NCBI RefSeq assembly: GCF_023734095.1
Contig: NZ_AP024620.1
Coordinates: 2,414,501 to 2,478,500, forward strand
Length of the DNA stretch: 64,000 bases
Source: Moorella sp. Hama-1
GTDB taxonomy: Bacteria; Bacillota; DSM-521; Neomoorellales; Neomoorellaceae
Reading direction: 5' to 3'
Positions 37,346 to 60,831 of the stretch are shown here, one piece after another. The position numbers and the translations under genes were made by a program. Below the pieces are notes generated by a model. That model had not been told where the DNA came from. It worked only from the letters and a program-made list of their open reading frames with translations, and made no database searches. Numbering within the stretch: the stretch's first letter is position 1; each line of letters starts with the position of its first letter.

Positions 37346-37374
37346 ATATTCTCTCCCGGGGGAGAAATTCCTGC
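37346..37374 (-). promoter_or_regulatory. SigH-like promoter for the glycine riboswitch/gcv operon
   Basis: On the minus strand, GCAGGAATT (37374-37366) and AGAGAATAT (37354-37346) with an 11-nt spacer fit the SigH consensus without mismatch, 30 bp upstream of the first aptamer. No good SigA -35 fits here. Confidence 0.65.
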
Positions 37375-37473: not shown

Positions 37474-38628
37474 TTACTCTTTATATGCAAAAACCTCTGC
37501 AAACAGCCCCTGGCAATCAGCTACACTGACCACCCGCGGGTTGGCCCGGCAGATAAACATGGCCACTGCCTCCCGGGCGAATTTCTCCATGTCGGCCGGG
37601 TCTCGCAGGTAGTCCTTCAGGGTCGGCTGGATCTGCAGGTCGGCCTGGAGTTCCTGGACGGCCCGGACGGCCTCCAGGGCCGCCGCCCGGGCCGTCAGGT
37701 TCTGGACCGGCACCCCCAGCAGGCCGGCGATAAAGGCGTACTTCTCGGGTACAGCCACCAGGTTATAGCGCATGCCCAGGGGCAGGACCACGGCATTGGC
37801 CAGGCCGTGGGGGATGTTGTAATAACTGCTCAAAGGCCCGGCCATGGCGTGGACCACTCCCAGGCCGGCCTGGTCCATGGCCACCCCGGCCAGGGTGCTG
37901 GCCAGGGCCATGCCCTCCCGGGCCTCCAGGTCGTCGCCGCAGGCAAAGGCCCGGCGCAGGTATTTAGCAATCAGGCGCACGGCCTCGGCCGCCAGGGCAT
38001 TGGTAAAGGGGTTGGCTCCCCTGGCTACTAAAGCTTCTACGGCGTGGGTCAGGGCGTCCATCCCGGTGGTGGCGGTAATGGCCGGCGGCAGGCTGGCCAT
38101 CAGCTCCGGGTCCAGCAGGGCCGCCCGGGGCAGGAGTTCGTCCCCGACGATACCCTGCTTGGTGTCGCGGTCGATAATCACCGCCGTCGCCGTCCCCTCG
38201 CTGCCGGTCCCGGCAGTGGTAGGCAGGACGATTAACTTCAGGCCCGGCCAGGTAAAGGGCTTGCGCTCCCACTGGTAATCAGCCAGGGTACCCGGGTTGG
38301 TCAGGAGGACGCTGACCATCTTGGCCACATCCATAGGGCTGCCGCCGCCGACGGCCACCACTGCCGTGGCCCCGCAAGCCCGGGCCGCCCGGCAGGCCGC
38401 CTCGACATCCGCCGCGTGGGGGTTGACCGGCACCTGGCTGAAGACCTCCCAACCGGCCACCCGGCCCTGCAATACCTCTTCCACCATAGCCACTACCCCG
38501 GCTTTTACCAGCCCGGCATCGGTGATAACGATCACCCGGTCTTCTGACTGCACCAGGCGGGTGATTTCCTTCCTGGCGCCCGGCCCGAAGCTGAATTCGG
38601 TGCTTAAGAAAAAGCGCTGTACCGGCAT
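37474..38628 (-). CDS. Iron-containing alcohol dehydrogenase
   Basis: The 384-residue protein belongs to the group III Fe-ADH family: VVAVGGGSPMDVAKMVS (NAD-binding), VLPTTAGTGSEGTATAVII, MDALTHAVEALVARGANPF and the metal-binding HAMAGPLSSYYNIPHGLANA. It oxidises or reduces a primary alcohol/aldehyde with NAD(P). Substrate is unknown; Moorella encodes several paralogues. It has a good SigH-like promoter 80 bp upstream and no operon partner. Confidence 0.92.
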   Translation of the reverse strand: MPVQRFFLSTEFSFGPGARKEITRLVQSEDRVIVITDAGLVKAGVVAMVEEVLQGRVAGWEVFSQVPVNPHAADVEAACRAARACGATAVVAVGGGSPMDVAKMVSVLLTNPGTLADYQWERKPFTWPGLKLIVLPTTAGTGSEGTATAVIIDRDTKQGIVGDELLPRAALLDPELMASLPPAITATTGMDALTHAVEALVARGANPFTNALAAEAVRLIAKYLRRAFACGDDLEAREGMALASTLAGVAMDQAGLGVVHAMAGPLSSYYNIPHGLANAVVLPLGMRYNLVAVPEKYAFIAGLLGVPVQNLTARAAALEAVRAVQELQADLQIQPTLKDYLRDPADMEKFAREAVAMFICRANPRVVSVADCQGLFAEVFAYKE

Positions 38629-38709
38629 TCTTTATTCCTCCCTGGGCGTAGTTGCCCTTGATTTACGCCTCCCTATGCGATGAAACCTTACTATTTCCAT
38701 CGATAATAT

Positions 38710-38738
38710 CATTTCGACACCCCGGTTCATTTTCCTTC
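38710..38738 (-). promoter_or_regulatory. SigH-like promoter for the Fe-ADH gene
   Basis: On the minus strand, GAAGGAAAA (38738-38730) and GTCGAAATG (38718-38710), 11 nt apart. The -10 has GAAA. Confidence 0.45.
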
Positions 38739-38869
38739 CCCAGTTGCTAAATATGGTTTACTTTTCGACTAAAAGTGTTAGTAAAGCTTAATCCGACGGG
38801 GCGTTGGCTGCCAATATGCGAGGCTAATTTGCCTGGACTCTCGCCAGCACTGATTTGCGGGACTAGAAA

Positions 38870-38906
38870 CCCCGGTACCCGCGGGATAGACCCGTGGGCA
38901 CCGGGG
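38870..38906 (-). terminator. Intrinsic terminator after sdaAA
   Basis: CCCCGGTaCCCGCGGG pairs with CCCGTGGGcACCGGGG around ATAGA, 33 bp past the sdaAA stop on the minus strand. The rest of the 310-bp gap to the Fe-ADH gene holds only that gene's promoter. Confidence 0.7.
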
Positions 38907-38938
38907 CTTACTTTTTGCAGGCTTTATTTTGGAGGGCT

Positions 38939-39823
38939 TTACTGGGAAGAAGCCTGATCCAGGGTCTTGATCCCGATCTGTTCCGCCAGTTTCCGGGCCG
39001 TGGGGCAGGCGGCTATCCCGCCGGTACCGGTTTCCCGTAAAGCCGGTGGCAGGGCGCGACCGACCTGGACCATGGCTGCTACTATCTCATCAAAGGGTAA
39101 ATAGCACTGGACCCCGGCCAGGGCGATATCTGCCGCTACCAGGGCCTGGGCCGCGCCGGCAGCGTTGCGCTTGACGCAGGGGATCTCCACCAGGCCGCCC
39201 ACCGGATCGCAGACCAGCCCCATTAGACCCTGGAGGGCTATCCCGGCGGCATCGGCGGCCCGTTCCGCTTCCCCGCCAACCATCTCCACGGCCGCTGCCG
39301 CCGCCATGGCGGCGGCTACCCCAACCTCGGCCTGGCAGCCCAGGGCGGCCCCGGAAAGGGAGGCCTGCCGGGCGGCCACCATACCGATGCCGGCGGCGGC
39401 AAAGAGCCCATCCACGAGCCGGTCTTCATCTAAACCCTTTTCCCCTTCCAGGGCCAGGAGAACGCCGGGGAGGATACCGCAGGAACCGGCCGTAGGCGCG
39501 GCCACCACCCGGCCCATGGAGGCGTTAACCTCGGCTACGGCCATGGCAATGGCTATTGCCCGGGCTATGGTACTGCCGCAGAGGCTCTGGCCGTTCAAAC
39601 GCCTTTCCTCCAGTAATTTGCCACCGCCCCCCACCAGGCCGCTGGGGGAACGGAGCTCCTCATTGAGGCCCTTCCGAGCTGCGGCCCGCATGACCGCCAG
39701 CCGGTCGGCCATGGACTGGCGGATCTCCTGTCTGGTTTTCCCTTCCAGCTCTTCCTGGTAACGGATGACCACCCCGGCCAGGGTCAACCCCGCCTCTCCA
39801 GCTATTTGCAAGAGTTCAGCCAT
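38939..39823 (-). CDS. sdaAA: L-serine dehydratase, iron-sulfur-dependent, alpha subunit
   Basis: The roughly 294-residue protein has the [4Fe-4S]-ligating pattern of the alpha chain: APTAGSCGILPGVLLAL, LVCDPVGGLVEIPCVKRNAA. It converts L-serine to pyruvate and ammonia. The ATG at 39823 (MAELLQIAGEAGLTL) lies 10 bp past the sdaAB stop; a TTG at 39847 inside sdaAB is a weaker alternative. The oxygen-sensitive two-subunit form is standard in anaerobes. It can drain serine formed from glycine. Confidence 0.94.
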   Translation of the reverse strand: MAELLQIAGEAGLTLAGVVIRYQEELEGKTRQEIRQSMADRLAVMRAAARKGLNEELRSPSGLVGGGGKLLEERRLNGQSLCGSTIARAIAIAMAVAEVNASMGRVVAAPTAGSCGILPGVLLALEGEKGLDEDRLVDGLFAAAGIGMVAARQASLSGAALGCQAEVGVAAAMAAAAAVEMVGGEAERAADAAGIALQGLMGLVCDPVGGLVEIPCVKRNAAGAAQALVAADIALAGVQCYLPFDEIVAAMVQVGRALPPALRETGTGGIAACPTARKLAEQIGIKTLDQASSQ

Positions 39824-39833
39824 GCTCTGAAAG

Positions 39834-40490
39834 TTATACCGGGTCAATCTGGATCACCCGCTCCATCATTGGTAAGGTCCGCATGGCCGGCACCAGTCCC
39901 GGCGGGATGGCCTGGTCGGTTTCGACGACCATCAGAGCCCGTTCACCTGCTTCCCTGCGGGAAACCCGCATACCGGCAATATTTACCCCCACCCCGGCCA
40001 GCAGGGCCGTCACTGCGGCAACTATTCCCGGCCGGTCGGGGTAAGCCGCCACCAGGGTCGGCAGGTCGCCACTCAGTTCTACTTCGAAGTCGTCGATTCG
40101 CCTGACCAGCACCTGGGCCCCGCCCAGGGAGGAGGCCACCACCTGGACCCCCCGCTCCGGACCCTGGAGATTCAACTGTACCGAATTGGGGTGCACATCG
40201 CCCAGGTCCTTCTCGCCGAAGATAACCTCCAGGCCGGCCGCCGGCGCCAGTTCCAGGGCCTCCCTCACCCGCTCATCGGCAACATCGAAACCCAGGAGGC
40301 CGGCCACCAGGGCGCGGTCGGTGCCGTGGCCGCGGAAGGTGCGGGCGAAGGAGCCGTGGAGGAGGATCTCCGCCCGGACGGGTTGCTCGCCCAGGATGGC
40401 CCGGGCCAGGCGGCCGATGCGCACCGCCCCGGCGGTATGGGAACTGGAAGGCCCGATCATTACCGGGCCGATGATTTGGAAGGCATCCAC
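39834..40490 (-). CDS. sdaAB: L-serine dehydratase, iron-sulfur-dependent, beta subunit
   Basis: The 218-residue beta chain starts with GTG at 40490 behind GGAGGGGCGACAGGT and reads DAFQIIGPVMIGPSSSHTAG, the serine-binding loop. A C-terminal ACT domain follows from about residue 145 (TLVAAYPDRPGIVAAVTALL). The order beta then alpha is usual in Firmicutes. Upstream lies a palindromic repeat (copy B), so the promoter may be inside or near that element. Confidence 0.94.
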   Translation of the reverse strand: MDAFQIIGPVMIGPSSSHTAGAVRIGRLARAILGEQPVRAEILLHGSFARTFRGHGTDRALVAGLLGFDVADERVREALELAPAAGLEVIFGEKDLGDVHPNSVQLNLQGPERGVQVVASSLGGAQVLVRRIDDFEVELSGDLPTLVAAYPDRPGIVAAVTALLAGVGVNIAGMRVSRREAGERALMVVETDQAIPPGLVPAMRTLPMMERVIQIDPV

Positions 40491-40499
40491 ACCTGTCGC

Positions 40500-40823
40500 C
40501 CCTCCGCAAATAGACCTCTGTCAAATCAGGCAATTGTTAGTCGTCGTTATGGGGGGCTCGAGGGTACAGGCTCCAGGCTCCGTGGTTCTCGGCGAGCAAA
40601 CTTAGCGCTCAGCCTTCCGCGGCGACGGGGGTGGCCTAGATTTATCCCTTTGTTCAACCGTGACGGGGCATACTACTTCCCGTTCTTAAAGCAGGGTTAC
40701 GATCCCCATTCCGTTCACCGTCGCCTCGCCGCGGCTTCGCGCAAGTATCTTATGCCTCGAACCAAGTCGCCTTTTGCCTGTACCCTCGAGCCCTTTGCCT
40801 CAACCTACATTATTTTTGCTCAA
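40500..40823 (+). repeat. Palindromic intergenic repeat, copy B
   Basis: Between arcC and sdaAB. The core arms are GGGCTCGAGGGTACAGG (40554-40570) and CCTGTACCCTCGAGCCC (40777-40793), a perfect 17-bp inverted repeat. Inside are the family segments GTGGTTCTCGGCGAGCAAAC, CGATCCCCATTCCGTTCACC and CCTCGAACCAAGTCGCC. The outer right flank is TTTGCCTCAACCTACATTA. Confidence 0.88.
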
Positions 40824-40834
40824 CACTCTCGCCT

Positions 40835-41779
40835 TTACCCGGCGACGATTTCCGTACCGGAGCGGCCGGCAACCGCTTCGGCGGCCCGGGCCAGGGAGCC
40901 GATAATCGCCTTCTCGCCTCCGGCTTCCACAAAGTTGATGGCCGCTTCCACCTTGGGCCCCATGCTCCCCGGGGGGAACTGGCCCTCGGCCAGGTAGCGG
41001 CGGGCTTCGCTAACCGTTAACCTGGCTACTTCCCGCTGGGTGGGTAGGCCGTAATCCAGGCAGACCCGTTCGACATCGGTGAGCAGGAAGAGAACCTCCG
41101 CCTCGACCTGTCTGGCCAGGATGGTGGCGGCCCGGTCCTTGTCGATAACGGCCTCGACGCCTTCCAGGCTGCCGTCGTCCCGGCGCACCACCGGGATACC
41201 ACCGCCCCCGGCGGCCACGACAATAATGCCCGCCCGGGTGAGGGCTTTAATGGCTTCCCGCTCAATGATCTCCAGGGGTTTGGGCGAGGGAACCACCCGC
41301 CGCCAGCCGCGGTGGCTGTCCTCAACCATGCGGTAACCCCGTTCCCGCATTAGTTTCTCGGCTTCCTCCTGGCTGTAAAAGGGACCTACCGGCTTGGTGG
41401 GGTTCTGGAAGGCCGGGTCATCGGCTGCTACTACCACCTGGGTAACTACGGCTGCCACCGGAACTCTTAAACCGTGGCTGGCCAGTTCATACCCCAGGGC
41501 CTGCTGGATGGCGTAACCAATGGAACCCTGGGTGTTGGATACCAGGACGTCCAGGGGCATGGCCGGCACAACATCTTTAGCCATTTCGTTTTTAAGTAGC
41601 ATATTGCCCACCTGGGGACCATTGCCATGGGTCAAAACCAGGCGATACCCCGCGCGGGCGAGATCGACCAGCTGCCGGCAGGTAGCAGTGACATTGGCCT
41701 TCTGCTCGGCAAAGGTACCCTTCTCGCCGGGGCGGGTGATGGCGTTACCGCCAAAGGCCATAACTACGGTCCGGGGCAT
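40835..41779 (-). CDS. arcC: Carbamate kinase
   Basis: The 314-residue amino-acid-kinase fold protein starts with VMAFGGNAITRPGEKGTF and contains LVLTHGNGPQVGNMLLKNE, RRVVPSPKPLEIIE, VVAAGGGGIPVV and GSMGPKVEAAINFVE. It makes ATP from ADP and carbamoyl phosphate. No arginine deiminase gene is present. Beside a purine-degradation cluster it fits the ygfK/ssnA-type loci in which carbamate kinase gains energy from purine or allantoin breakdown. A SigH-like promoter lies 40 bp upstream. Confidence 0.95.
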   Translation of the reverse strand: MPRTVVMAFGGNAITRPGEKGTFAEQKANVTATCRQLVDLARAGYRLVLTHGNGPQVGNMLLKNEMAKDVVPAMPLDVLVSNTQGSIGYAIQQALGYELASHGLRVPVAAVVTQVVVAADDPAFQNPTKPVGPFYSQEEAEKLMRERGYRMVEDSHRGWRRVVPSPKPLEIIEREAIKALTRAGIIVVAAGGGGIPVVRRDDGSLEGVEAVIDKDRAATILARQVEAEVLFLLTDVERVCLDYGLPTQREVARLTVSEARRYLAEGQFPPGSMGPKVEAAINFVEAGGEKAIIGSLARAAEAVAGRSGTEIVAG

Positions 41780-41819
41780 TATTATCCCTCCATGTAACCA
41801 CGCTTTACTTGGTACTTAT

Positions 41820-41848
41820 TAATTCAATATGAATTTAATTTTTCCTGC
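41820..41848 (-). promoter_or_regulatory. SigH-like promoter for arcC
   Basis: On the minus strand, GCAGGAAAA (41848-41840) and ATTGAATTA (41828-41820), spacer 11, full match to the SigH consensus, giving a leader of roughly 35 nt. Confidence 0.65.
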
Positions 41849-41879
41849 CGGCAGCTAGAGATTTTTAAATAAAATTAAA

Positions 41880-41907
41880 AACAGGGGCGATTATAAGCAC
41901 CCCTGTT
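41880..41907 (-). terminator. Intrinsic terminator after ygfK
   Basis: AACAGGGG and CCCCTGTT pair; on the minus strand TTTTTAATTTTATTT follows. A second GC-rich hairpin (41913-41951, AAGCCC...GGGCTT with GGGGCC/GGCCCC inside) precedes it, giving tandem stops. Confidence 0.85.
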
Positions 41908-42013
41908 AAATTAAGCCCCCGGGGGCCGCCATACGGCCCCGGATGGGCTTCCAGGTTACTCGAATATAACCATACCTTGACCAGCAGGAATTCCCTGCGC
42001 TAGTACTGCCAGC

Positions 42014-45000
42014 CTAAAACAGGTGCCGGTAGCCCTGGTACGTAGCCAGGATCAGGTCCGCAACTCCTTTATCCAAGCCGGCACCGGTCCGGCCGGCGGC
42101 ATCGAACTTAACCTCCAGCACCCGGCCGTCGAGCCTGACTTTAAAGGCCGGTTCCTCCCCATCCTCCAGGAGCAGGAAGCCGTTATTCTGGCTGTTGTTG
42201 AAATCCTCCTCGCTCCAAAAGAGGGTCAATTTGTCTTTATACGGGGCGCCGTCGTAGGGGCAGAAGGTGGCGCAGTTGCCGCATTCGTTACACATACCGT
42301 CAACGTGGATGATCTGGTTACGATTACGGAAAACGGCGTTACCCCTCTGGACGGCGACGTTGGCCCGGTTGGGGCAGACCTCCGTGCAGATGTTGCAGAT
42401 AAAGTCGCACTCCAGGCAGCGCGGCGGCTCCTGGCCCGGATCGTTAGAGGGGCCCTGGAGGAGGCCCTTCTTCTGGTTAACCTCCCTGAGCCTCTGATCA
42501 TCATCGAAGGCCACCCTGGCCGCAGCGGGCGGCGTCAGGCCTTCCCGGGCGAGGATCGCCGCAGCCGCTTTACGGCCATCGGCAATGGCTTCTACTATAG
42601 TGGCCGGGCCGCGCAGGGCGTCACCGCCGATAAAAACATTAGCTACCCTGGTCTCATTGGTATCCTGGTCGACAACAACCCGGCCCCGGGCGTCCCTGGT
42701 GATACCGTTACGCTCCAGGAAGGCCCCGTCCACCTCCTGGCCGGTGGCGGCCAGGACGGCATCAACGGCCAGGTCTTCAAACTCGCCCTCCCGGGCGACT
42801 ACCCCCGGTCGCCCCGAGGCATCCGGTGCAGCCAGTTGCATCTTCTGGCACCTCAATATCCCTGCCGACCAGGAGTAGGGGGCCAGGAGTTCTTTCAGGA
42901 TTATACCCTCAGCCAGGGCCTCCTGGAGTTCTTCCCGGCTGGCCGGCATATACGCCCGGGTACGGCGGTAGATGATAAAGACTTCCTCAACGCCGGGGAC
43001 CCGCCGGGCCGCCCGGGCGGCGTCCATGGCTGTATTGCCACCGCCGATGATGGCCACCCTTTTACCCAGGCGTACCGCCTGCGGGTCAGCTTTAAAGCGG
43101 GCCAGGAATTCCACGGCGCCGGTAACCCGTTCCCCGCCGCCCTTTAGTTGCAAGGTTTGGGATTTCCCGGCCCCCGGGGCCAGGAAGACGTATTTAAAGC
43201 CTTTTTCCCGGAGTTGGGCCACGGTCAGGTCGGGGCTGGCCCCCAACTGGAATTTGACACCCGTGGCCTGTACCAGTTCCAGGTCCCGGTTGATGGCCTC
43301 ACCGGAGATGCGGAAATCCGGGATCACATAAGCCACCGTACCGCCCGGCTTTTCCCTTTGATCAAAGATGGTAACCCCCAGGCCGGCCCGGGCCAGGAAG
43401 TAACCGGCCGCCAGGCCCGCCGGGCCCGCCCCGATCACGGCCACGCGGGTTGAAGACTGTACCGGCGGTCCGGCCTTCCCGGCCAGGTAGCCTTTGACAG
43501 CCGCCACCTTCTTCATCGACCGGATAAGTACCGGTTCATCGTAATCCAGGCGGGTACATTTGGCGGCACAGTGCTGGGTGCAGATGCTGCCGGTGATAAA
43601 GGGCAGGGGATTCTTAGTGGTTATCAGTTCAAAGGCCTCGTGGTACCGCTTCTCACCCACCAGCCGGATGTACTCCGGTACATCCTGGCCAATGGGACAA
43701 CCGACGGTGCAGGGCGCGACAAAACAGTCCGTCAGGGGTAGTTTCCGGTTCAGCTTGCGGCTGGGGACGGCCTTTTTCTCCTTGCGGAAGTTAGGGTCCT
43801 TCACGGCCCCGGCTGCCAGCCCGGCCAGCCTGGTGACATCTACACCGTCAACATCCGCCAGCCGGGCGGCCAGTTCCGCGGCTATTTGCTGCAAGCGCAG
43901 GTAGCCGCCTGGCTTTAGCAGGGTTGTGGCCACGGTGATGGGCCAGATGCCCGTTGCGAAGATACCAGGGATGTTCCAGGCGTCACCCCCGCCGGCGTAG
44001 GAGATCTTGAGCTGGCCATTGAATTCCCGCGCCAGCCGGGCGGCCAGGTTGATGGTCAAGGCATAAAGGGCCCGGCCCGACATATACATCTCCTCGCCGG
44101 GGAGCTCACCCCGGGTGATTTGCGCCGGCAGGGTGTTGGAGAGTTTAACGCCAAAGCCCCGGCCCTGCTCCCGGGCGAACTCCTGCAACCTCTGCACCAG
44201 GGCCAGGCCGTCGGCGTACTGCAGGTCATGGCTGAAGGATTCCTCTTTTAACTGGACATAGCCATAGCCCATCTTATCCAGGGTTTCCCTGACAAAGTCA
44301 TAGCCTAGGAGGGTGGGGTTCAATTTGACAAAGGTGTGCAGCTTCTTCTCCGCCAGCAGATAACGACAAATGGTTTCGATCTCTGCCGGCGGGCAGCCGT
44401 GCATGGTGGAAAGGGTAACGGAGCTGCAGATGTGGGGTGAAATGCCGTCGATAAAACCGGCATCTACGGCTGCGAAGCGGTCAACTTCCTCCTTGAGGAC
44501 TGCCCGGCACTCCTGGAAGATGGCAGTAGACGAGGCGTCCTTCAAACCCTCGATAAAGCCGTCGACCTTGGGGGATTTGATCCCCTGCAGGTCATAGCCG
44601 ACGCTCATATTGAACATGAAGCCGCGCCTGTCGGTGCCCCAGAGTTCTTTCTGTAAAACATGGAGCAGGAACCAGGCCTTGACGTACTCCGCAAAGGCTT
44701 CTTCAATGGCCAGCTCAGTTGACCATTCGACGTTATAACACTCATCAGCCGCATTGATGCAGGGTTTGGGGAGTTCTAGCCGGTCCAGGATCTGGACCGT
44801 CTTCAGCTCAAAGAACCGGCCCCCGGCCAGGTAGGCGGCGACGATATTCTGGGCCAGCTGGGTATGGGGACCGGCCGCCGGCCCGATGACACTCTCCAAA
44901 TATTCCCCAAATAATTGCCGGTAAATACCTTTTTCCGGCCGGAAAAATTTCTTCCGGGGTATGCCAAAGATGCTGTGGAACTTCTGGTTTTCCTCCAGTA

Positions 45001-45049
45001 TCCAATTCAGGAGTTTTCTGAAAGGTATTGGCCGCATTACGTCACCCAT
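42014..45049 (-). CDS. ygfK: YgfK-like iron-sulfur flavoprotein oxidoreductase (putative selenate reductase subunit)
   Basis: The ATG at 45049 is preceded by GGGGGAAGAGGA; the frame could extend to 45166 but without a site. The product of about 1011 residues matches YgfK size. The N-terminal third resembles dihydroorotate-dehydrogenase-like barrels (SLGYDL/YAGGGDAWNIPGIFA). Then come GltD-type Fe-S cysteines (CTVGCPIGQDVPEY, CTQHCAAKCTR), an FAD site (VAVIGAGPAGLAAGYF), an NAD(P) site (RVAIIGGGNTAMDAARAAR), and C-terminal ferredoxin motifs (CNECGNCATFCPYDGAP). In E. coli ygfK adjoins ssnA and xdhD. Here it probably moves electrons for purine hydroxylases. The selenate reductase name is historical and unproven. 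Confidence 0.88.
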   Translation of the reverse strand: MGDVMRPIPFRKLLNWILEENQKFHSIFGIPRKKFFRPEKGIYRQLFGEYLESVIGPAAGPHTQLAQNIVAAYLAGGRFFELKTVQILDRLELPKPCINAADECYNVEWSTELAIEEAFAEYVKAWFLLHVLQKELWGTDRRGFMFNMSVGYDLQGIKSPKVDGFIEGLKDASSTAIFQECRAVLKEEVDRFAAVDAGFIDGISPHICSSVTLSTMHGCPPAEIETICRYLLAEKKLHTFVKLNPTLLGYDFVRETLDKMGYGYVQLKEESFSHDLQYADGLALVQRLQEFAREQGRGFGVKLSNTLPAQITRGELPGEEMYMSGRALYALTINLAARLAREFNGQLKISYAGGGDAWNIPGIFATGIWPITVATTLLKPGGYLRLQQIAAELAARLADVDGVDVTRLAGLAAGAVKDPNFRKEKKAVPSRKLNRKLPLTDCFVAPCTVGCPIGQDVPEYIRLVGEKRYHEAFELITTKNPLPFITGSICTQHCAAKCTRLDYDEPVLIRSMKKVAAVKGYLAGKAGPPVQSSTRVAVIGAGPAGLAAGYFLARAGLGVTIFDQREKPGGTVAYVIPDFRISGEAINRDLELVQATGVKFQLGASPDLTVAQLREKGFKYVFLAPGAGKSQTLQLKGGGERVTGAVEFLARFKADPQAVRLGKRVAIIGGGNTAMDAARAARRVPGVEEVFIIYRRTRAYMPASREELQEALAEGIILKELLAPYSWSAGILRCQKMQLAAPDASGRPGVVAREGEFEDLAVDAVLAATGQEVDGAFLERNGITRDARGRVVVDQDTNETRVANVFIGGDALRGPATIVEAIADGRKAAAAILAREGLTPPAAARVAFDDDQRLREVNQKKGLLQGPSNDPGQEPPRCLECDFICNICTEVCPNRANVAVQRGNAVFRNRNQIIHVDGMCNECGNCATFCPYDGAPYKDKLTLFWSEEDFNNSQNNGFLLLEDGEEPAFKVRLDGRVLEVKFDAAGRTGAGLDKGVADLILATYQGYRHLF

Positions 45050-45325
45050 TCCTCTTCCCCCCGTTAATAAAATGTGCGCGGGTGAGATAAGGGGGGCAAA
45101 CTGCCTCCCAGGTGGGCGCCAGCCGCCCTTACCCTCTGCACCCTGGATATTCTTTGCAATTAGCAATTAAACCTTATTCGACACCTGCTGCCCGGAATTC
45201 CCAGTTAAACCCTCAGGCTGGAGGGCAACTCCCGCAAGTCGCCTATGCCGCCGGACGGCACCAGCAGCGATCGTGCTACCTCTGACCACATCGGCAATTT
45301 GCTATCAACACAGTTTTATATATAT
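45050..45325 (-). other. Long GC-rich 5' leader of ygfK
   Basis: About 270 nt separate the SigH-like promoter from the ygfK start. The leader contains self-complementary blocks (GCCGTCCGGCGGC; CCCTCCAGCCTGAGGG; AATTGCTAATTGCAAAG). It does not show the purine-aptamer signature seen elsewhere in the cluster, and I could not assign it to a known riboswitch. Confidence 0.45.
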
Positions 45326-45354
45326 TAATTCGACCTAAGTTTATTTAATCCTGC
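45326..45354 (-). promoter_or_regulatory. SigH-like promoter for ygfK
   Basis: On the minus strand, GCAGGATTA (45354-45346) and GTCGAATTA (45334-45326), spacer 11, full consensus match. Confidence 0.65.
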
Positions 45355-50641: not shown

Positions 50642-50713
50642 AAAAACCAGGTATACCGCCAGGCTACAATAGAGAATAACCCTTCGTAGCCAAGGTGATT
50701 CCGGTCACCTGGT
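50642..50713 (-). terminator. Candidate alternative terminator of the purine riboswitch (BMP gene)
   Basis: On the minus strand ACCAGGT (50713-50707) can pair with ACCTGGT (50652-50646), followed by TTTTT. Inside, GGCTAC (50691-50686) pairs with GTAGCC (50667-50662). Forming this stem destroys P3 and the J3/1-P1 strand of the aptamer. Confidence 0.55.
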
Positions 50714-50749
50714 AGAAACCCCCGAACCCATTTCCGGGATTATACGAAG
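50682..50749 (-). ncRNA. Purine riboswitch, guanine-type, upstream of BMP lipoprotein gene
   Basis: On the minus strand the P1 strands CTTCGTA and TACGAAG enclose TATAATCC, a P2 hairpin with loop AATGGG, the invariant J2/3 GTTTCTACC, a P3 hairpin with loop CCGGAA, and the J3/1 GGCTAC. The C in GCTAC matches the specificity-determining position 74 (C = guanine/hypoxanthine, U = adenine). The gene starts about 200 nt downstream. Confidence 0.92.
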
Positions 50750-50788
50750 ACTCCTGTAAAGGAAGACTTCCATTTTTTAATGTTTATT

Positions 50789-53737: not shown

Positions 53738-54625
53738 CTATTCGCCATGAAGCGCGATTTTCCTGCTGGTTGCCCGGGAAAAAGCTGCGCCCAGGGCCCG
53801 GGCTACCAGGACCGCAGTCATATCTTTGCGGTAGGCGCTGGAGCCCCGGAGGAGGCTATCCCGGGGCCGGGCCGCGGCAGCTGCGGTTGCAGCAGCCCGG
53901 GTTATCACCCCGGCGTCCGGCTCCTGTCCCACCAGGACGGCGGCAGCCTCCTCGCACAGGAAAGGTTGCGGCGCCACCGGGGCGACGCAGATACGCGCCC
54001 GGGTGCACCGGCCGTCAACCACCTGGACCCGCACGGCCACATTGAGCATAGGCAGGGACAGGGCACGCCGGGGTGACAAGCGGGCGAAGGCCGAAGCCTC
54101 GCCCTCGCCCCACAGGTCAACGGTGAACCTGGTGATCATCTCGCGACCGGGATCTACCAGGGAACGGCCGACCCCGGCATAAAGGTCGGCTACCGGCACT
54201 TGACGTTCGCCCTCCAAGCCCAGGATGGTAGCCACACCTCCCAGGGCCACCAGGACCACGGCCGTGTCGGCCGCCGGCTGGGCGTTAACTACGTTACCGG
54301 CCAGGGTGCCGACATTGCGCACCTGAGGGGAGCCGACGGCGGCAGCCGCAGCGGCCAGGGCAGGGAGTTTCTCCCGGATGAGGGATGAGGTAGCAATCAT
54401 GGTATGGGTGACAGCACCACCCAGGACAATCTGGTCGTTTTCCTCACGAACTATTTTTAGCTCGGGAATGCGGGTGATATCTACCAGGGTGGTCACCCGG
54501 CGTTTCTCTTCCTTGAGGTCGATGACCAGGTCGGTTCCCCCGGCAATTATCCGTGCTCCCGGGTTGGCTGCCAGCAGTTCCAGGCATGCGGCCGTTGTGG
54601 TGGCGAAAAGGTACTGCTGGGGCAT
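53738..54625 (-). CDS. FAD-binding subunit of a molybdenum hydroxylase (second set)
   Basis: The 295-residue protein has the PCMH-type FAD site: ANPGARIIAGGTDLVIDLKE near the N-terminus and AAVGSPQVRNVGTLAGNVVN (the second FAD motif) near residue 95, then a CO-dehydrogenase flavoprotein C-terminal domain (LSPRRALSLPMLNVAVRVQV). It passes electrons from the Fe-S subunit to NAD or another acceptor. In E. coli terms it corresponds to ygfM beside ssnA. It follows ssnA by 370 bp (repeat copy D lies between) and has GGAGGGGATAAG before its ATG. Confidence 0.9.
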   Translation of the reverse strand: MPQQYLFATTTAACLELLAANPGARIIAGGTDLVIDLKEEKRRVTTLVDITRIPELKIVREENDQIVLGGAVTHTMIATSSLIREKLPALAAAAAAVGSPQVRNVGTLAGNVVNAQPAADTAVVLVALGGVATILGLEGERQVPVADLYAGVGRSLVDPGREMITRFTVDLWGEGEASAFARLSPRRALSLPMLNVAVRVQVVDGRCTRARICVAPVAPQPFLCEEAAAVLVGQEPDAGVITRAAATAAAAARPRDSLLRGSSAYRKDMTAVLVARALGAAFSRATSRKIALHGE

Positions 54626-54644
54626 CTTATCCCCTCCATAGATA

Positions 54645-54992
54645 GGGTTCTGCCTAAAAAATGTCCTCTTGGTTAAGCTGTAAATCAGTTCCTGGGGGCT
54701 GGAGGTTACAGGCGGAGGGCGACCTGGTTCGAGGCGTCAGCAAACTCAGCGAAGCCGCGGCGAGGCGGCGGTGAACGGGATGGGGATCGTAACATAATTA
54801 TTGTAGGGACTAGGAGTTCCGTCCACTGCCGCGTTTATTCAAAGAGATAAAGGCAGCCACCCCCGCCGCCGAGCAAGGCTGAGCGCCAAGTTTGCTAGCC
54901 GAGAACCACCGGAGCCCGGAGCTGTACCTCCAGCCCCCATTTAGCCTAGATTTTCCTGGTTAGTTGTGGGCGCGTCAGCCCCCATGAACGGC
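54645..54992 (-). repeat. Palindromic intergenic repeat, copy D
   Basis: Opposite in orientation to copies B and F. The arms are GGGGGCTGGAGGTTACAG (54694-54711) and CTGTACCTCCAGCCCCC (54922-54938), complementary except for one extra T. Family segments TGGTTCGAGGC, CAGCAAACTCAGCGAAGC, AAGTTTGCT and CGAGAACCACCGG are visible. It lies between ssnA and the FAD-subunit gene. Confidence 0.88.
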
Positions 54993-54996
54993 TCTT

Positions 54997-56322
54997 CTAA
55001 AATCTTTCCCACACCTTTAACGCCTGTTCCCGAGCTTTGGCGGCGATAGCTGCTTCGTCCAGGTGCTGGAGCTGCCGCCCCCGCATGAGGACCCGGCCGC
55101 CGATGATGGTGGTGTCCACCAGGCCGCCGTTGAAGCCGAAAAGCAGGTGGCCGAACCAGTTTGCCGCCGTTAGGGGTGTCGGCGCCTGATAATCGACCAG
55201 GATCACGTCGGCATAGGCCCCGGGTTCCAGGCGACCAAGGGGCCGGTGGAAGAACCGGGATAGGATGCGCCGGTTATTAGCAAAGGCCAGGGCCGGCACC
55301 TCCACCCAACCGGCGCCGGGGTCGCCGGAAACAAACTTGCGCAGCACATTGGCTGTCTTCAGGGATTCAAACATATCGCTGGTATAGCCGTCCGTTCCCA
55401 GGCCGACGGTGACTCCAGCGGCCAGCAGGTCGCCCACCGGGGCGCAACCCACGGCGTTACCCATGTTGGATTCCGGGTTATGGACTACCAGGGTGCCCGT
55501 TTCTTTGAGGATGGTTATTTCCTTTTCCGTTACATGGACGCAATGGGCGGCAATGGTATCCGGGCCCAGGATGCCGCTGGCGGCCAGGCGTTCGACTACC
55601 CGTTTACCGTATTTGGCCAGGGAGTCTTCAACGTCCTGGATACCTTCGGCCACGTGGATGTGAAAGCCGCTCCCCACCTCGCCGGCGGCCTCCCGGCAGG
55701 CGGCCAGGGTGGCGTCGGACAGGGTCAGGGAGGCGTGGAGGCCGAAGGTGGCTGAGATTAAATCATTCTGGCCGCGATACTTCTTGATGGCGGCGACGTT
55801 TTCAGCGATACCCTGGCGCATAATCTTCTCGCCGTCGCGGTCGGAAACTTCGTAGGCCAGACAGGTCCGCACCCCCGTTTCCCGGGCGGCATGGGCGATG
55901 GTCTCCAGGCTGCCGGTCACGGCGTGGGGGCTGGCGTGATGATCCAGGATGGTGGTGGTACCGCTCTTGATACAGTCAATCATGGGCAGGAGGGCGCTGT
56001 AGTAGACGTCATCCAGAGTCAGGGCCTTATCCAGGCGCCACCACAGGCGCTGGAGGATCTCCAGGAAGTTAGTCGGCGGTGGGTCCTTCAAGGCTATGCC
56101 CCGGGCGAAGGTGCTGTAAAGGTGCATGTGGGTGTTGGTCATGCCGGGCATAATAACCATGCCCCGGGCGTCCAGCCAGTCGGCTTCCGGGTAGCGTTTT
56201 TTGAGTTCAGTCGTGGTCCCGGTGGCGACAATCCGGTCATCCTCCACGGCCACCGCCCCGTCTTCCTGGTAGGGTTTTTCCGGCACCAGGGAAAGCAGGC
56301 GGCCGTTACCGATTAGCAGCAC
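54997..56322 (-). CDS. ssnA: SsnA-type aminohydrolase (amidohydrolase superfamily)
   Basis: The 441-residue protein starts with GTG after GAAGGAGGGGG. It has the metal site THMHLYSTFARGIALKD, the TTTILDHHASP segment, FHIHVAEGIQDVEDSL, HCVHVTEKE, and LGTDGYTSDMFESLK with the metal-binding Asp. It fits SsnA and related guanine/adenosine-type deaminases. In the purine setting it probably deaminates an aminopurine or opens a ring, but the substrate of SsnA itself is not established. It follows the Mo-FAD-FeS hydroxylase genes with a 16-bp gap. Confidence 0.88.
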   Translation of the reverse strand: MLLIGNGRLLSLVPEKPYQEDGAVAVEDDRIVATGTTTELKKRYPEADWLDARGMVIMPGMTNTHMHLYSTFARGIALKDPPPTNFLEILQRLWWRLDKALTLDDVYYSALLPMIDCIKSGTTTILDHHASPHAVTGSLETIAHAARETGVRTCLAYEVSDRDGEKIMRQGIAENVAAIKKYRGQNDLISATFGLHASLTLSDATLAACREAAGEVGSGFHIHVAEGIQDVEDSLAKYGKRVVERLAASGILGPDTIAAHCVHVTEKEITILKETGTLVVHNPESNMGNAVGCAPVGDLLAAGVTVGLGTDGYTSDMFESLKTANVLRKFVSGDPGAGWVEVPALAFANNRRILSRFFHRPLGRLEPGAYADVILVDYQAPTPLTAANWFGHLLFGFNGGLVDTTIIGGRVLMRGRQLQHLDEAAIAAKAREQALKVWERF

Positions 56323-56338
56323 AGGGTCCCCCTCCTTC

Positions 56339-56800
56339 TTATTCCTTAATGGCCTTTTCTACGGCCTTAATGATGTTCTGGTAGCCGGTACAGCGGCAGA
56401 GATGACCGGCGAGTTCCTTTTTGATCTCTTCCCGCGTATACTTTTTACCGCTGTTGACTATGGCCGTGGCCGTCATAATATAACCTGGGGTGCAGAAGCC
56501 GCACTGGACGGCTCCCTCTTCAATAAAGGCCTTCTGCACTTTGGAAAGCTCGCCGTTTTTAGCTATACCCTCGACAGTAACTATATCTTTGCCGTCGGCC
56601 CAGACGGCCAGGTAGATACAGGAGTCAATGGGGGTACCGTCGATCAGGACGGTGCAGGCGCCGCACTCGCCCACGCCGCAGCCCTTTTTTACCCCAGTAT
56701 AGCCCAGGCGGTTGCGCAACACCTCCAGCAGGGTTTCCCGCACGTCGACCTCCAGATTTACCGGTGTGCCGTTGACCGTCCAAGAAATCTTTTTAAGCAA
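56339..56800 (-). CDS. [2Fe-2S] subunit of a molybdenum hydroxylase (first set)
   Basis: The 153-residue product begins at a TTG (56800; LKKISWTVNGTPVNLEVD) that overlaps the upstream stop, with GGGGGGTGAAGGGA before it; a GTG at 56809 is possible. Two [2Fe-2S] clusters are indicated: the plant-type CGVGECGACTVLIDG and CIYLAV, and the C-terminal CGFCTPGY with CRCTGYQN. It relays electrons from the molybdenum site to the flavin subunit. Longer upstream codons belong to the flavin gene in another frame. Confidence 0.92.
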   Translation of the reverse strand: MLKKISWTVNGTPVNLEVDVRETLLEVLRNRLGYTGVKKGCGVGECGACTVLIDGTPIDSCIYLAVWADGKDIVTVEGIAKNGELSKVQKAFIEEGAVQCGFCTPGYIMTATAIVNSGKKYTREEIKKELAGHLCRCTGYQNIIKAVEKAIKE

Positions 56801-57677
56801 TCCCTTCACCCCCCGCTCTGCTGATGGCCGCCCGCAGGGCCCGCCGGGTAAGCTCCGCCACCAGGTGCTCCCGGTATTCTTTCGAGGCCCGCCAGGAGGT
56901 CCGGGCCTGGGTTGACTTAACAGCCAGCCGGCCGATGGCCTTGATAGTTTCCGGAGTAGCTGTCTTGCCCCGGGCGTAATCTTCGGCCGCCGGGCACCTG
57001 CGGGGCGTCGGTCCGGCCACCCCCAGGCCAATCCGCACGTCCGCTAAAACGCTGCCTTCCTTTATCTTGCACAGCACCGCCACGCCCAAGGTGGCAATAT
57101 CCATGGCCTTACGCATGGAGAATTTAATATAACGGCCGCCGTAACCCTGGTAATCCGCCGGGGCTATGGTGATCGCCGTCAGGAGTTCACCGGGTTTTAA
57201 ATCCACTCTACCCGGCCCCAGGTAGAACTCCTGGATGGGAACCACCCGCTCACCCTGCCGGGACTGCAGTCTTAACCGGGCGTTCAGGGCAAAGAGGGCC
57301 GGGGCGCTGTCGGCGGAGGTGGCGCCGTTGCAAATATTACCGCCGATGGTAGCCACATTGCGAATCTGGGGCCCGCCCATGGAGGCGGCGGCTTCCGTTA
57401 AGACGGGTATCTTCCCCTGGATAACCTGGTCATTAATTACCTGGCTAAAGGTCGCCAGGGGCCCGATAACAATGGTGCCGTCATCCATCTGCTGAATACC
57501 CTGGAGGGATTGGATTCCCCTGATGCTCAGCAACCGGGCCCTTTCCAGCTGGCCGTGGTGCATTTTGATCAGGACATCAGTACCGCCGGCAATGACGGTC
57601 AGGCCGGGATGGGCCGCCAGCAGGTCCAGGGCTTCGGCTACGGTAGCCGCCTCAAAGTATTCCTCAAAGTTATACAT
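56793..57677 (-). CDS. FAD-binding subunit of a molybdenum hydroxylase (first set)
   Basis: This subunit of about 294 residues has HPGLTVIAGGTDVLIKMHHG and SMGGPQIRNVATIGGNICNG as FAD motifs, followed by the C-terminal CO-dehydrogenase-type domain (KFSMRKAMDIATLGVAVLC). The ATG at 57677 overlaps the stop of the molybdenum-subunit gene (TGATG). The set Mo-FAD-FeS is transcribed in that order and is complete. Confidence 0.93.
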   Translation of the reverse strand: MYNFEEYFEAATVAEALDLLAAHPGLTVIAGGTDVLIKMHHGQLERARLLSIRGIQSLQGIQQMDDGTIVIGPLATFSQVINDQVIQGKIPVLTEAAASMGGPQIRNVATIGGNICNGATSADSAPALFALNARLRLQSRQGERVVPIQEFYLGPGRVDLKPGELLTAITIAPADYQGYGGRYIKFSMRKAMDIATLGVAVLCKIKEGSVLADVRIGLGVAGPTPRRCPAAEDYARGKTATPETIKAIGRLAVKSTQARTSWRASKEYREHLVAELTRRALRAAISRAGGEGIA

Positions 57678-59983
57678 CAATCCTCACCGCCTTCCTGGAT
57701 TAACCCGGCTTCCTTGAACTTCTCGAAGACCAGCTGGGGTTTCAGTGGTAACCTATTAAATGCCACCCCCGTAGCGTCTAAAACGGCATTGCGAATGGCC
57801 GGGGCGACGGGGATGGTCGGCGGCTCACCCAGGGATTTGCAGCCGAAGGGATGGGTGGGTTCAAAGGTTTCCACGAAATCCACCCCAATCTCCGGGACAT
57901 CCATAATCGTCGGCAGTTTGTAGTCCAGGAGGTTGTTGTTCAGGGGCCGGCCCGTTTGTTCATCAAACAGCATCTGCTCGGATAAGGCGTAGCCCAGGCC
58001 CATGCTGACACCGCCGTGGACCTGGCCCGCGGCCAGCAGGGGGTTGATAATCTGGCCGGAGTCGTGGACGTTATAGATCTCCAGGACCTCGATTTTGCCA
58101 GTCGGCAGGTCGACCTCCACCTCGGCAAAGGTGACGCCGAAGACGAAGGCGTTGACCCGGGCGTTATTGGAGGTATCGCTGGTTATCGGTTCGGCCAGGG
58201 CCAGATCGTAATAGCTCTGCAGGGCCACCTCGGCCAGGGGCATGACCACCTCCCCCGAGTGCTTATATACGATATTCTGTTCCCGGATATCCAGGGCGTG
58301 GGTGGGTATATCGGTCATCTTCTTGACGAAATCCAGGATCTTCTTTTTGACCTCGGCTGCTGCTTTAGCCACGGCCATACCGGTGACATAGGTCTGCCGG
58401 GAGGCATAGGCGCCGGTGTCAAAGGGGGCGATGTCCGTATCCTGGGTGGAGACGACATGGACCATATCCACCGGCAGGCCCAGGGTCTCGGCCACCATCT
58501 GGGCGAAGATGGTATCGCTGCCCTGCCCGATCTCCGTAGCTCCAAGTTGCAGTTGCACGGAACCGTCCTGGTTCAACACAATCCGGGCCCCGGCAATCTC
58601 CAGCCCCACCGGGTAGGTGCCGGAACCATAGCTGAAACAGGCCATGCCCAGGCCCCGGCGTTTGTCGCCGGTCTGGTTCTTATACTGCTCTTTCTTCTCG
58701 TCCCATTTGATAAGCTCCTTACCTTTGGCAATGCACTCGCGGATGCCGCAGCTCCGCACCTTGTTGCCGTTCAAGGGATCGACATAGCCCTCGGTAACCA
58801 GGTTTTTCAGGCGGAACTCAAGGGGATCCAGGTTGAGTTTACGGGCGATGTTGTCCAGGTGGCTCTCCACAGCGAAGGTTATCTGGGGCGAACCATAACC
58901 TCGCATGGCCCCGGCCACCGGCAGGTTGGTATAGACGGTACAGGGTTCGTATTTCAGGGCCGGCATGGGATAAAGGATCCGGAACTTGGAGCCCCCGGCC
59001 ATGGCAATGGAATGACCGTGGGAGGCGTAGGCCCCGGTGTTAGAAATGGCCTGGATAAGCATGCCAGTCAGCTTGCCATCTTTGGATATACCTGCCTTCA
59101 GCTTAAATTTAAAGGCATGGCGGGTACGGGTATCAATCATACATTCTTCCCGCGATAGTTCCAGCTTGACCGGCCGGCCCCCCACAGCCAGGGTCATGGC
59201 TGCGGCTAAGGGTTCAGTGCAGACGTCCTGTTTGCTGCCGAAGCCGCCGCCGATATAGGGTTTGATGACCTTGACCCGGCCCCAGGGGATACCTAAGGCC
59301 TGGCCGACGATCCTGCGGACGATATGGGGGATCTGGGTGGAGGTGATAATGACGATGCGGCCGTCGCTGTCGACGTAGGCGATGGAGATATGGTTCTCCA
59401 GCTGGCAATGCTGGACAATACTCGTCTCCAGTTCGTCCTCAAAGGTATAGTCTGCTTCCCGGAAGGCCGCCTCAACGTCGCCGATGGTATAACCGTTGGC
59501 ATTAAGGATATTCCGGGGAGCGTCTTCATGGATTAAGGGCGCGCCTTCTTTCATGGCTGCTTCCGGGGTGAGAAGGGGCTCTAATTCTTCATACTCGACT
59601 TTAATCAGCTTCAGGGCTTCTGCCGCTACCAGTTCGTCCCTGGCTACCACGGCGGCCACAGCGTCGCCGACAAAGCGGGCTTTATCGGTCAATATGGTCC
59701 GGTCGGCTTTGTCCCTGTGTTTTGGGTCCAGGGCATAGGGATGCCCGGCGGTGGGAAACTTATGGTGCGGAACGTCTTGATAGGTTAAAACAGCCTCCAC
59801 GCCGGGCAGCGCCCGTGCCCGGCTGGTATCGATACTTTTAACAAGGGCGTGGGCATAAGGGCTCCTCAATATCTTGCCCACCAGCATGTCCCTGGGCCTA
59901 AAATCACCGGTATATTTGGCTTGCCCGGTGACCTTGGCCACAGCGTCAACCCTGGTTACGCTCTTCCCCACTACGGCTGCCAT
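57677..59983 (-). CDS. Molybdopterin-binding subunit of xanthine dehydrogenase-type hydroxylase (first set)
   Basis: The ATG at 59983 follows GGAGGGGATAAA. The 768-residue catalytic subunit shows VGKSVTRVDAVAKVTGQAKY, IGGGFGSKQDVCTEPLAAAM, AGAMRGYGSPQITFAVE, the pterin motif LGATEIGQGSDTIFAQM and the catalytic Glu in KSLGEPPTIPVAPAI. There is no CO-dehydrogenase AYxCSFR loop, so a purine or other N-heterocycle hydroxylase is likely. In this kind of cluster the enzyme may be selenium-dependent (SDMH), but no selenocysteine codon is required for that and none is seen. Confidence 0.92.
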   Translation of the reverse strand: MAAVVGKSVTRVDAVAKVTGQAKYTGDFRPRDMLVGKILRSPYAHALVKSIDTSRARALPGVEAVLTYQDVPHHKFPTAGHPYALDPKHRDKADRTILTDKARFVGDAVAAVVARDELVAAEALKLIKVEYEELEPLLTPEAAMKEGAPLIHEDAPRNILNANGYTIGDVEAAFREADYTFEDELETSIVQHCQLENHISIAYVDSDGRIVIITSTQIPHIVRRIVGQALGIPWGRVKVIKPYIGGGFGSKQDVCTEPLAAAMTLAVGGRPVKLELSREECMIDTRTRHAFKFKLKAGISKDGKLTGMLIQAISNTGAYASHGHSIAMAGGSKFRILYPMPALKYEPCTVYTNLPVAGAMRGYGSPQITFAVESHLDNIARKLNLDPLEFRLKNLVTEGYVDPLNGNKVRSCGIRECIAKGKELIKWDEKKEQYKNQTGDKRRGLGMACFSYGSGTYPVGLEIAGARIVLNQDGSVQLQLGATEIGQGSDTIFAQMVAETLGLPVDMVHVVSTQDTDIAPFDTGAYASRQTYVTGMAVAKAAAEVKKKILDFVKKMTDIPTHALDIREQNIVYKHSGEVVMPLAEVALQSYYDLALAEPITSDTSNNARVNAFVFGVTFAEVEVDLPTGKIEVLEIYNVHDSGQIINPLLAAGQVHGGVSMGLGYALSEQMLFDEQTGRPLNNNLLDYKLPTIMDVPEIGVDFVETFEPTHPFGCKSLGEPPTIPVAPAIRNAVLDATGVAFNRLPLKPQLVFEKFKEAGLIQEGGED

Positions 59984-60002
59984 TTTATCCCCTCCGAAAA
60001 TA

Positions 60003-60200
60003 GGGTTCTGCAAAAAATAGTGCTTTCTGATGGGGCTATGTCCCCACCTAGTTTCACACTTGCGTTCCGATCCCCATCCCCTTCACCGCCGCCTCGCCGC
60101 GATTTCGCGCAAGCACCTTGCTCCTCGAACCAAGTCGCCTTCCGCCTGTACCCGCCCAGCCCCTTACCTCAACCTACATTTTCAAACCTTCTGGTAGGTC
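60003..60200 (+). repeat. Palindromic intergenic repeat, copy E (left part altered)
   Basis: The left end TGCAAAAAATAGTGCTTTCTG, GGGGCTATGTCCCC resembles copy C. The right part ATCCCCATCCCCTTCACCGC, GAACCAAGTCGCCTTCCGCC, TGTACCCGCCCAGCCCC and CCTCAACCTACATTTT matches B and F. It is shorter than B and F and separates two hydroxylase genes within one operon. Confidence 0.8.
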
Positions 60201-60202
60201 CC

Positions 60203-60688
60203 TTAGCCCCCATGATGGGCTCCTGCCATAATTGATGCCGCCTTTTCTACGGCCGTAATTATTTTAGTATAGCCGGTACAGCGGCACAAATTGCCCGCTA
60301 GGGCCACCTTGATTTCCTCGCGACTGGGGTGAGGATTGCTGTCCAGGAAGGCCTTGGCACTCAGGATCATCCCCGGGGTGCAGAAGCCGCACTGGACGGC
60401 CCCTTCGGTAATAAAGGCCTCCTGGAGGGGATGCAGTTTGCCGTCTGGCGCGGCCAGGCCCTCGATGGTCAGGACCTCGGCACCCTCCGCTTTGGCGGCC
60501 GGGATCAGGCAGGAGTTAACCGCCCGGCCGTCCAGGAGCACAGTACAGGCACCGCACTCGCCCTTGCCACACCCCTCCTTGGTACCGGTAAGGCCCAGAT
60601 ACTCCCGCAACAACTCCAGCAGGGTAACATCCGCCGGGGCCTCGACCCGGTATTCCTGGCCGTTGACCTTCAAGTTGAACAGGCGCAT
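60203..60688 (-). CDS. [2Fe-2S] subunit of a molybdenum hydroxylase (second set)
   Basis: The start is the ATG at 60688 (MRLFNLKVNGQEYRVEAP), five bases after GGGGGGAG; an ATG at 60703 lies on the far side of that site. The 161-residue protein has CGKGECGACTVLLDG, CLIPAAK and CGFCTPGMILSA with CRCTGYTK. A purine riboswitch sits directly upstream, so this gene and the four after it are likely controlled by purine. It is a paralogue of the protein at 56.3 kb. Confidence 0.93.
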   Translation of the reverse strand: MRLFNLKVNGQEYRVEAPADVTLLELLREYLGLTGTKEGCGKGECGACTVLLDGRAVNSCLIPAAKAEGAEVLTIEGLAAPDGKLHPLQEAFITEGAVQCGFCTPGMILSAKAFLDSNPHPSREEIKVALAGNLCRCTGYTKIITAVEKAASIMAGAHHGG

Positions 60689-60705
60689 GATTGCTCCCCC
60701 CATAT

Positions 60706-60739
60706 AAAGAAACCAGCTGACCGCCCTCCTCGTAGCTGG
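60706..60739 (-). terminator. Candidate ligand-responsive terminator of the second purine riboswitch
   Basis: On the minus strand CCAGCT (60739-60734) pairs with AGCTGG (60718-60713), followed by TTTCTTT. The 5' arm is the J3/1 region of the aptamer, so stem and ligand-bound aptamer exclude each other. Confidence 0.65.
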
Positions 60740-60793
60740 GTGATTACGGTCACCTGGTAGAAACCCCCGATCCCATTACCGGGGATATACGAG
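60728..60793 (-). ncRNA. Purine riboswitch, guanine-type, upstream of hydroxylase operon
   Basis: On the minus strand: P1 CTCGTA ... TACGAG, TATATCC, P2 with loop AATGGG, J2/3 GTTTCTACC, P3 GGTGA/TCACC with loop CCGTAA, and J3/1 CAGCTAC with C at the specificity position. P2 shows a U-A pair where the copy at 50.7 kb has A-U, so the stem is conserved by covariation. Confidence 0.92.
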
Positions 60794-60802
60794 TCTTATT
60801 AA

Positions 60803-60831
60803 TAATTCGCCGCCGGCATATTTAATCCTGC
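60803..60831 (-). promoter_or_regulatory. SigH-like promoter for the second purine riboswitch transcript
   Basis: On the minus strand, GCAGGATTA (60831-60823) and GGCGAATTA (60811-60803), spacer 11, full consensus match. Transcription would start only a few bases before the aptamer. Confidence 0.68.

Follow-up and report, generated by a model that had tools for sequence, protein, structure and literature searches.

Guanine riboswitches are textbook OFF switches. This direction of control is also how they are described in published work (PMC9295807, PMC11477304), and in the guanine-PRPP tandem guanine promotes termination, giving an OFF output (PMC5912903). Among the variant classes, guanine-II aptamers of Paenibacillus are predicted to be ON switches (PMC9295807), as are xanthine-II aptamers, which precede xanthine dehydrogenase and allantoinase genes (PMC9295807). 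For the pbuE riboswitch, a mismatch in P3 was reported to matter for strand exchange (PMC7707468).

Here, we analyzed a stretch of 64,000 nucleotides of the Moorella sp. Hama-1 genome (the window), in which a guanine-class aptamer stands before a xanthine dehydrogenase (XDH) operon. From the aptamer, the alternative terminator overlapping it, the fold energies, the conservation with compensatory changes and the operon itself, all of which were observed, we consider it very likely that this leader is a transcriptional ON riboswitch controlling the operon.

Aptamer, promoter and operon

Using cmscan with Rfam 15, the Purine aptamer RF00167 was detected at 60812-60713 on the minus strand with 57.0 bits (gathering score 37; E 3.9e-7), the match spanning the full model (1-102). 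The ligand-contacting nucleotides U22, U51 and C74 of guanine-I are all kept, by which a guanine-type pocket is supported at the sequence level. The earlier note, made from the letters of the window, had called the aptamer guanine-type, and the full-length match above threshold together with these three nucleotides confirms that assignment.

60713..60812, minus: guanine-class riboswitch aptamer (RF00167; cmscan, 57.0 bits)
60793-60788 with 60734-60729, minus: P1, CUCGUA/UACGAG (from the sequence)
60735 (C), 60759 (T) and 60787 (T), minus: C74, U51 and U22 (from the sequence)
60803..60831, minus: SigH-type promoter GCAGGATTA-N11-GGCGAATTA, about 10 nt 5' of P1 (exact match to RNAGGAWWW-N11-RNNGAATWW)
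60203..60688, minus: xdhC-type [2Fe-2S] subunit, operon gene 1 (Fer2_2 117 bits; XdhC_XDHase 195.5 bits, under the cut-off of 217)
57677..60013, minus: xdhA, Mo-binding subunit of xanthine dehydrogenase (PRK09970 equivalog, 1282 bits, cut-off 916)
56793..57680, minus: xdhB, FAD subunit (PRK09971 equivalog, 430 bits, cut-off 287)
56339..56821, minus: second xdhC subunit (XdhC_XDHase 257.6 bits, cut-off 217)
54997..56322, minus: ssnA aminohydrolase (TIGR03314, 701.7 bits, cut-off 455.5)

The xdhC-xdhA-xdhB-xdhC'-ssnA operon starts 25 nt past the aptamer end, and xdhA, xdhB, the second xdhC and ssnA all four score above their curated NCBIfam cut-offs; an additional FAD subunit gene follows ssnA. 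The "hydroxylase operon" of the earlier note is thus xanthine dehydrogenase, and its statement that the aptamer precedes a purine oxidation operon holds by the NCBIfam equivalogs. The window also contains ygfK, carbamate kinase and a BMP-type ABC transporter. Taken together, the regions 37474-45166 and 53738-60688 carry a gene set resembling the ygfK-ssnA-xdh purine region of E. coli (ygfK, 1612 bits; ssnA, 702 bits; carbamate kinase; XDH subunits), and next to it lie genes for glycine cleavage and a serine dehydratase-like function, as would suit the anaerobic breakdown of purines. A single glycine riboswitch aptamer (37214-37318, minus, 62.8 bits) lies beside gcvT and is immediately preceded by a SigH-type promoter.

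With the SigH consensus RNAGGAWWW / RNNGAATWW as quoted in PMC8510167 and a spacer of 11, five exact matches were obtained in the window against 0.00 expected, all on the minus strand (5267-5295, 37346-37374, 41820-41848, 45326-45354 and 60803-60831). Four of them precede the glycine riboswitch, carbamate kinase, ygfK and the XDH riboswitch, which suggests that purine and glycine catabolism may be read from SigH promoters. Genome-wide, the N11 pattern yielded 67 matches versus 1 for the reversed pattern, and a gene for SigH is present there (378 bits, cut-off 294.8). In Moorella and its family, allowing a spacer of 11 or 12, the box was present before 10/10 XDH-small-subunit, 8/11 BMP, 7/13 XDH-large-subunit, 1/7 NCS2 and 0/13 purE leaders. 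The promoter supports the strand assignment and gives a short leader starting near P1; the XDH leader would presumably be controlled by SigH itself. A near SigH-type box is also located at 50817-50789, by the second (BMP) riboswitch.

Terminator and direction of control

60758-60747, minus: J2/3 (from A52) and P3 5' strand ACCAGGUGACCG, the aptamer part doubling as terminator 5' arm (MFE fold; partners +2..+11 from C50)
60723-60712, minus: terminator 3' arm CGGUCAGCUGGU (MFE fold, arm-swap and covariation tests)
60702..60712, minus: U-rich tract UUUCUUUAUAU, its first U common to the terminator arm (from the sequence)
60694..60701, minus: Shine-Dalgarno sequence GGGGGGAG, immediately 3' of the U tract and outside the terminator (from the sequence)
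60734..60739, minus: CCAGCU, 5' arm proposed in the earlier note, an alternative weak stem with 60718-60713 (fold energies, orthologue comparison)
60735..60737, minus: J3/1, A72 G73 C74, with the A72 G73 order in no other of 75 tabulated aptamers

In the duplex ACCAGGUGACCG:CGGUCAGCUGGU, which is followed by UUUCUUU, 11 of 12 positions are paired and the remaining one is a G.G. The terminator built on it is the minimum-energy fold of the leader at -35.9 kcal/mol, 6.4 kcal/mol below the best fold keeping P1, P2 and P3 (-29.5 kcal/mol), and the hairpin on the P3 5' arm amounts to -22.2 kcal/mol, all energies being computed at 37 °C without tertiary contacts for a thermophilic genus. When the stretch downstream was shuffled 5000 times with dinucleotides preserved, 0.04% of the shuffles attained the duplex energy of -20.1 kcal/mol, and only 0.05% of 4000 other segments preceding U tracts matched the leader's own segment in pairing with the P3 arm; the leader as a whole folds better than its shuffles (z -2.25). 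In predicted folds of growing transcripts, numbered from 60797, the complete aptamer appears at about 70-78 nt and the terminator from 80 nt on. A generic promoter and terminator scan missed this terminator, since only loops of 3-8 are permitted there. Sequestration of the Shine-Dalgarno sequence was rejected, as the latter lies 3' of the U tract and outside the hairpin.

By predicted folds and pairing scan, the terminator shares sequence with the aptamer, as required of an ON platform of the pbuE type, and to this extent the likeness to pbuE drawn in the earlier note stands; the part that does not is the route of invasion, as the 5' arm is formed by J2/3 and the P3 5' strand and not by the 3' strands used in an invasion through P1.

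We infer the ligand, the direction of control in vivo and the kinetics as follows. Transcription would begin just 5' of P1, and P1, P2 and P3 would fold first. A bound purine (guanine, hypoxanthine or xanthine) would lock the aptamer, so that P3 remains paired and the polymerase reads through. Without ligand, the emerging CGGUCAGCUGGU would pair with the P3 5' strand and J2/3 and invade P3, thereby destroying the binding pocket and building the 12-bp terminator 5' of UUUCUUU. Anatomy, energetics and conservation in 16 genomes all support the prediction that ligand should raise expression, and the remark that such logic suits catabolism fits an operon whose products oxidize hypoxanthine and xanthine.

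The same ON output had been ascribed to another stem, in which CCAGCT (60739-60734), including J3/1 and C74, pairs with AGCTGG (60718-60713) ahead of TTTCTTTATAT. This complementarity is real, takes in C74 and gives a hairpin of -8.6 kcal/mol by itself, but the hairpin on the P3 5' arm reaches -22.2 kcal/mol, and the best fold holding the proposed stem (-27.5 versus -35.9 kcal/mol) lies 8.4 kcal/mol over the minimum. Neither is the stem conserved: no orthologue has CCAGCU, the same site reading CCGACU, UCGACU, UCGGCU or CUGACU, and the terminator CUGG is kept in these orthologues nonetheless, because it pairs with CCAG of J2/3. A switch acting through the J3/1 stem is therefore highly improbable, and as the main terminator it was rejected on energy and conservation; the idea that the ligand-bound aptamer excludes the terminator survives, with the P3 5'-strand helix in place of CCAGCU:AGCUGG. 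The dinucleotide before C74 is GA in 36 and GG in 37 of the 74 other aptamers (one row is mis-anchored). In the window copy a GA-to-AG swap breaks the P3 closing pair C54-G72, leaving C54.A72 where orthologues keep G72, and by itself creates CCAGCU, so that the stem is a species-specific by-product.

The swap also bears on the question whether the window copy still responds. It may weaken the aptamer, and C54.A72 leaves ligand binding by this copy in doubt, judging from the sequence, with the orthologue family unaffected; the ON conclusion for the family is independent of the A72 G73 oddity. The leader could then be a constitutive attenuator, its junction damaged by C54.A72 and G73, which would agree with the absence of A72 before C74 from all other correctly anchored tabulated aptamers and with the lowest bit score among the five RF00167 aptamers of the genome. 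However, P1, P2, a shortened P3, U22, U51, C74, the loop GG/CC and the matching terminator arm are all retained, which is not expected of a fully decayed switch, and we regard such a loss of response as unlikely. An OFF switch, in which ligand-stabilized P1 permits a small hairpin GAGG.CGG-UCAG-CUG.UUUC before UUUAUAU, has very little probability: the hairpin does occur in the aptamer-enforced fold (about -5 kcal/mol), but it is weak and GU-rich, the orthologous stretches form different hairpins of -2 to -5 kcal/mol, and the conserved P3-complementary arm would be left meaningless. Throughout the Moorella small-subunit leaders, the 16-17 nt between P1 and the U tract yield only -2 to -5 kcal/mol, which is too little for an OFF terminator. 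It is possible, though on the doubtful side, that the ON switch answers to xanthine, hypoxanthine or another oxidized purine rather than guanine, given that the downstream enzymes act on hypoxanthine and xanthine, that J3/1 is altered in the window copy and that related variants 5' of xdh sense xanthine (PMC9295807); against this, the xanthine-II hallmark of U51G with a two-nucleotide J2/3 insertion is missing, and C74, U51 and U22 are those of guanine-I.

Conservation and opposite layouts in Moorella

The source genome carries five RF00167 aptamers, and 42 were found in 11 genomes of the genus, among them M. thermoacetica DSM 21394, M. stamsii, M. mulderi and M. sulfitireducens. Their downstream genes fall into five classes, namely purE, XDH large subunit, XDH small subunit (the kind in the window), BMP transporter and NCS2 permease. 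The XDH-small-subunit leader is present in 9 of the 11 genomes, the two without it being incomplete assemblies.

In all 26 XDH leaders, which come from 16 genomes, one of these being a MAG, the arm ahead of a U tract pairs with J2/3 and the P3 5' strand (+2 to about +14, counted from C50), one leader being mixed (L089) and one pairing only at a later U tract (L080); a further leader (L134) has the same layout by eye. Also, the terminator is fitted better by the leader's own P3 arm than by the mean of swapped-in arms in 26/26 cases. For the XDH-small-subunit leaders, the pre-terminator fold has both P1 and P3 in 9/10 and the longer fold is the terminator in 10/10, where the wrong U tract was used for L085 and L095 lay outside the set. 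Across 21 distinct arm pairs, 20 cells were changed on both sides, a value reached by 0 of 500 shuffles, which is a count and not a probability as related sequences share ancestry; sliding the partner by 1-3 columns left at most 5 such cells. At columns 7 and 8, the substitutions UA to CG and GC to AU correspond to P3 variants in which GUGA has become GCAA or GUAA; both the P3 3' strand and the terminator arm follow these changes, so that three strands covary.

A scan of an 85,000-genome collection for CTACCAGG...CTGGTTTYTT returned seven Moorella stretches and one Bacillota MAG (L095), where an XDH gene likewise follows this layout. Another match, in Christiangramia lutea outside Bacillota (L098), is probably due to chance. 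Two more distant leaders, L107 (G242) and L113 (G105), have XDH-like genes about 1.2 kb downstream and terminators outside the aptamer, and are possible OFF counterparts; the ON layout is therefore characteristic of Moorella and its relatives, and XDH-linked aptamers do not all share it. The second XDH operon of the source genome has its own leader (L002, G000:C1:1393940-1394041), in which G72 is kept and the terminator combines a perfect 12-bp P3 5'-arm helix with a nested anti-P1 hairpin, and which lends itself better to testing than the window copy.

Of the five aptamers in the source genome, the one before purE has an OFF layout and the other four an ON layout. Moorella purE leaders carry a strong terminator about 95-100 nt past C74, wholly outside the aptamer; in the one of the source genome (L001, G000:C1:2630355-2630457) an RF00442 match of 53.6 bits, below gathering score, overlaps the aptamer 3' end, and this ykkC-like domain is probably of the PRPP type. 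One aptamer class thus appears to have opposite outputs in one cell. The second riboswitch of the window belongs to the BMP class:

50667..50767, minus: second guanine-class aptamer, before the BMP-type ABC transporter (RF00167, 61.3 bits; terminator partners +2..+10)
50646..50658, minus: terminator 3' arm CGGUAUACCUGGU of the second riboswitch, pairing with 50713-50701 (pairing analysis)

Having the same kind of P3 5'-arm terminator, this riboswitch (50767-50646, minus) is probably also an ON switch. In Moorella, leaders of the BMP class employ the P3 5' arm and those of the NCS2 class a pbuE-like P3 3'/P1 3' arm, and elsewhere in the phylum leaders of both classes have mostly downstream terminators, in a classification that leaves about 20 leaders, mostly purE, unclassified and in which labels of single weak cases are unreliable. 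An A55.C71 mismatch was found in 15 of 29 distinct ON-type leaders versus 2 of 60 with downstream terminators, and may be the same strand-exchange device as in pbuE. On balance, we favor the reading that in Moorella and relatives a guanine-class aptamer with an unchanged pocket governs purine metabolism across the whole cell in both directions (OFF for purine synthesis, purE; ON for the two XDH operons, the BMP-type ABC transporter and the NCS2 permease), the BMP and NCS2 transporter families being flipped from the layouts, mostly of OFF type, that they have elsewhere in the phylum, and XDH and BMP being ON through P3 5'-strand invasion.

Comparison with known systems

Among open-access papers, to which the search was confined, none was found to report a guanine-I-type aptamer standing in an ON layout ahead of xanthine dehydrogenase, a riboswitch of Moorella xdh, or an ON switch that keeps the guanine-I pocket unaltered and works by invasion of the P3 5' strand; given this scope, such absence is weak evidence. 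If true, the present reading would describe a natural family in which the same pocket has a reversed output in one genome, showing that a riboswitch regulon can change sign via the expression platform alone. It would also supply natural parts for guanine-inducible ON control, thermophilic acetogens included, and a case of three-strand covariation for the study of strand invasion.

The window aptamer has the architecture of guanine-I (B. subtilis xpt type, RF00167), with U22, U51, C74 and the three-way junction. Most known guanine-I riboswitches act as OFF switches on synthesis, salvage or uptake genes (PMC9295807, PMC11477304), whereas the window leader stands before a catabolic operon in an ON layout and, unlike them, has A72 G73. 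Xanthine-II shares scaffold and xdh context and is predicted ON (PMC9295807), but has U51G and junction insertions, both missing here; with U51 kept and J2/3 of model length, lacking the two-nucleotide insertion, this identity was ruled out. Guanine-II of Paenibacillus likewise combines a guanine pocket with a predicted ON output (PMC9295807), but precedes phosphoribosyltransferase genes and has a J2/3 insertion that the window aptamer lacks; this identity (one-nucleotide J2/3 insertion plus J3/1 insertion) was ruled out by the same model-length J2/3. The guanine-PRPP tandem is resembled by the purE leader of the source genome in terminator position and ykkC-like domain, and its output is opposite to that of the XDH leader in the same genome. 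As in the adenine ON switch pbuE, the ligand-free terminator forms by strand invasion of the aptamer, and the P3 mismatch affecting exchange there (PMC7707468) is echoed by A55.C71 in the window leader; pbuE, however, has U at position 74 and is invaded through P1, whereas the window aptamer has C74 and its leader is invaded at J2/3 and the P3 5' strand.
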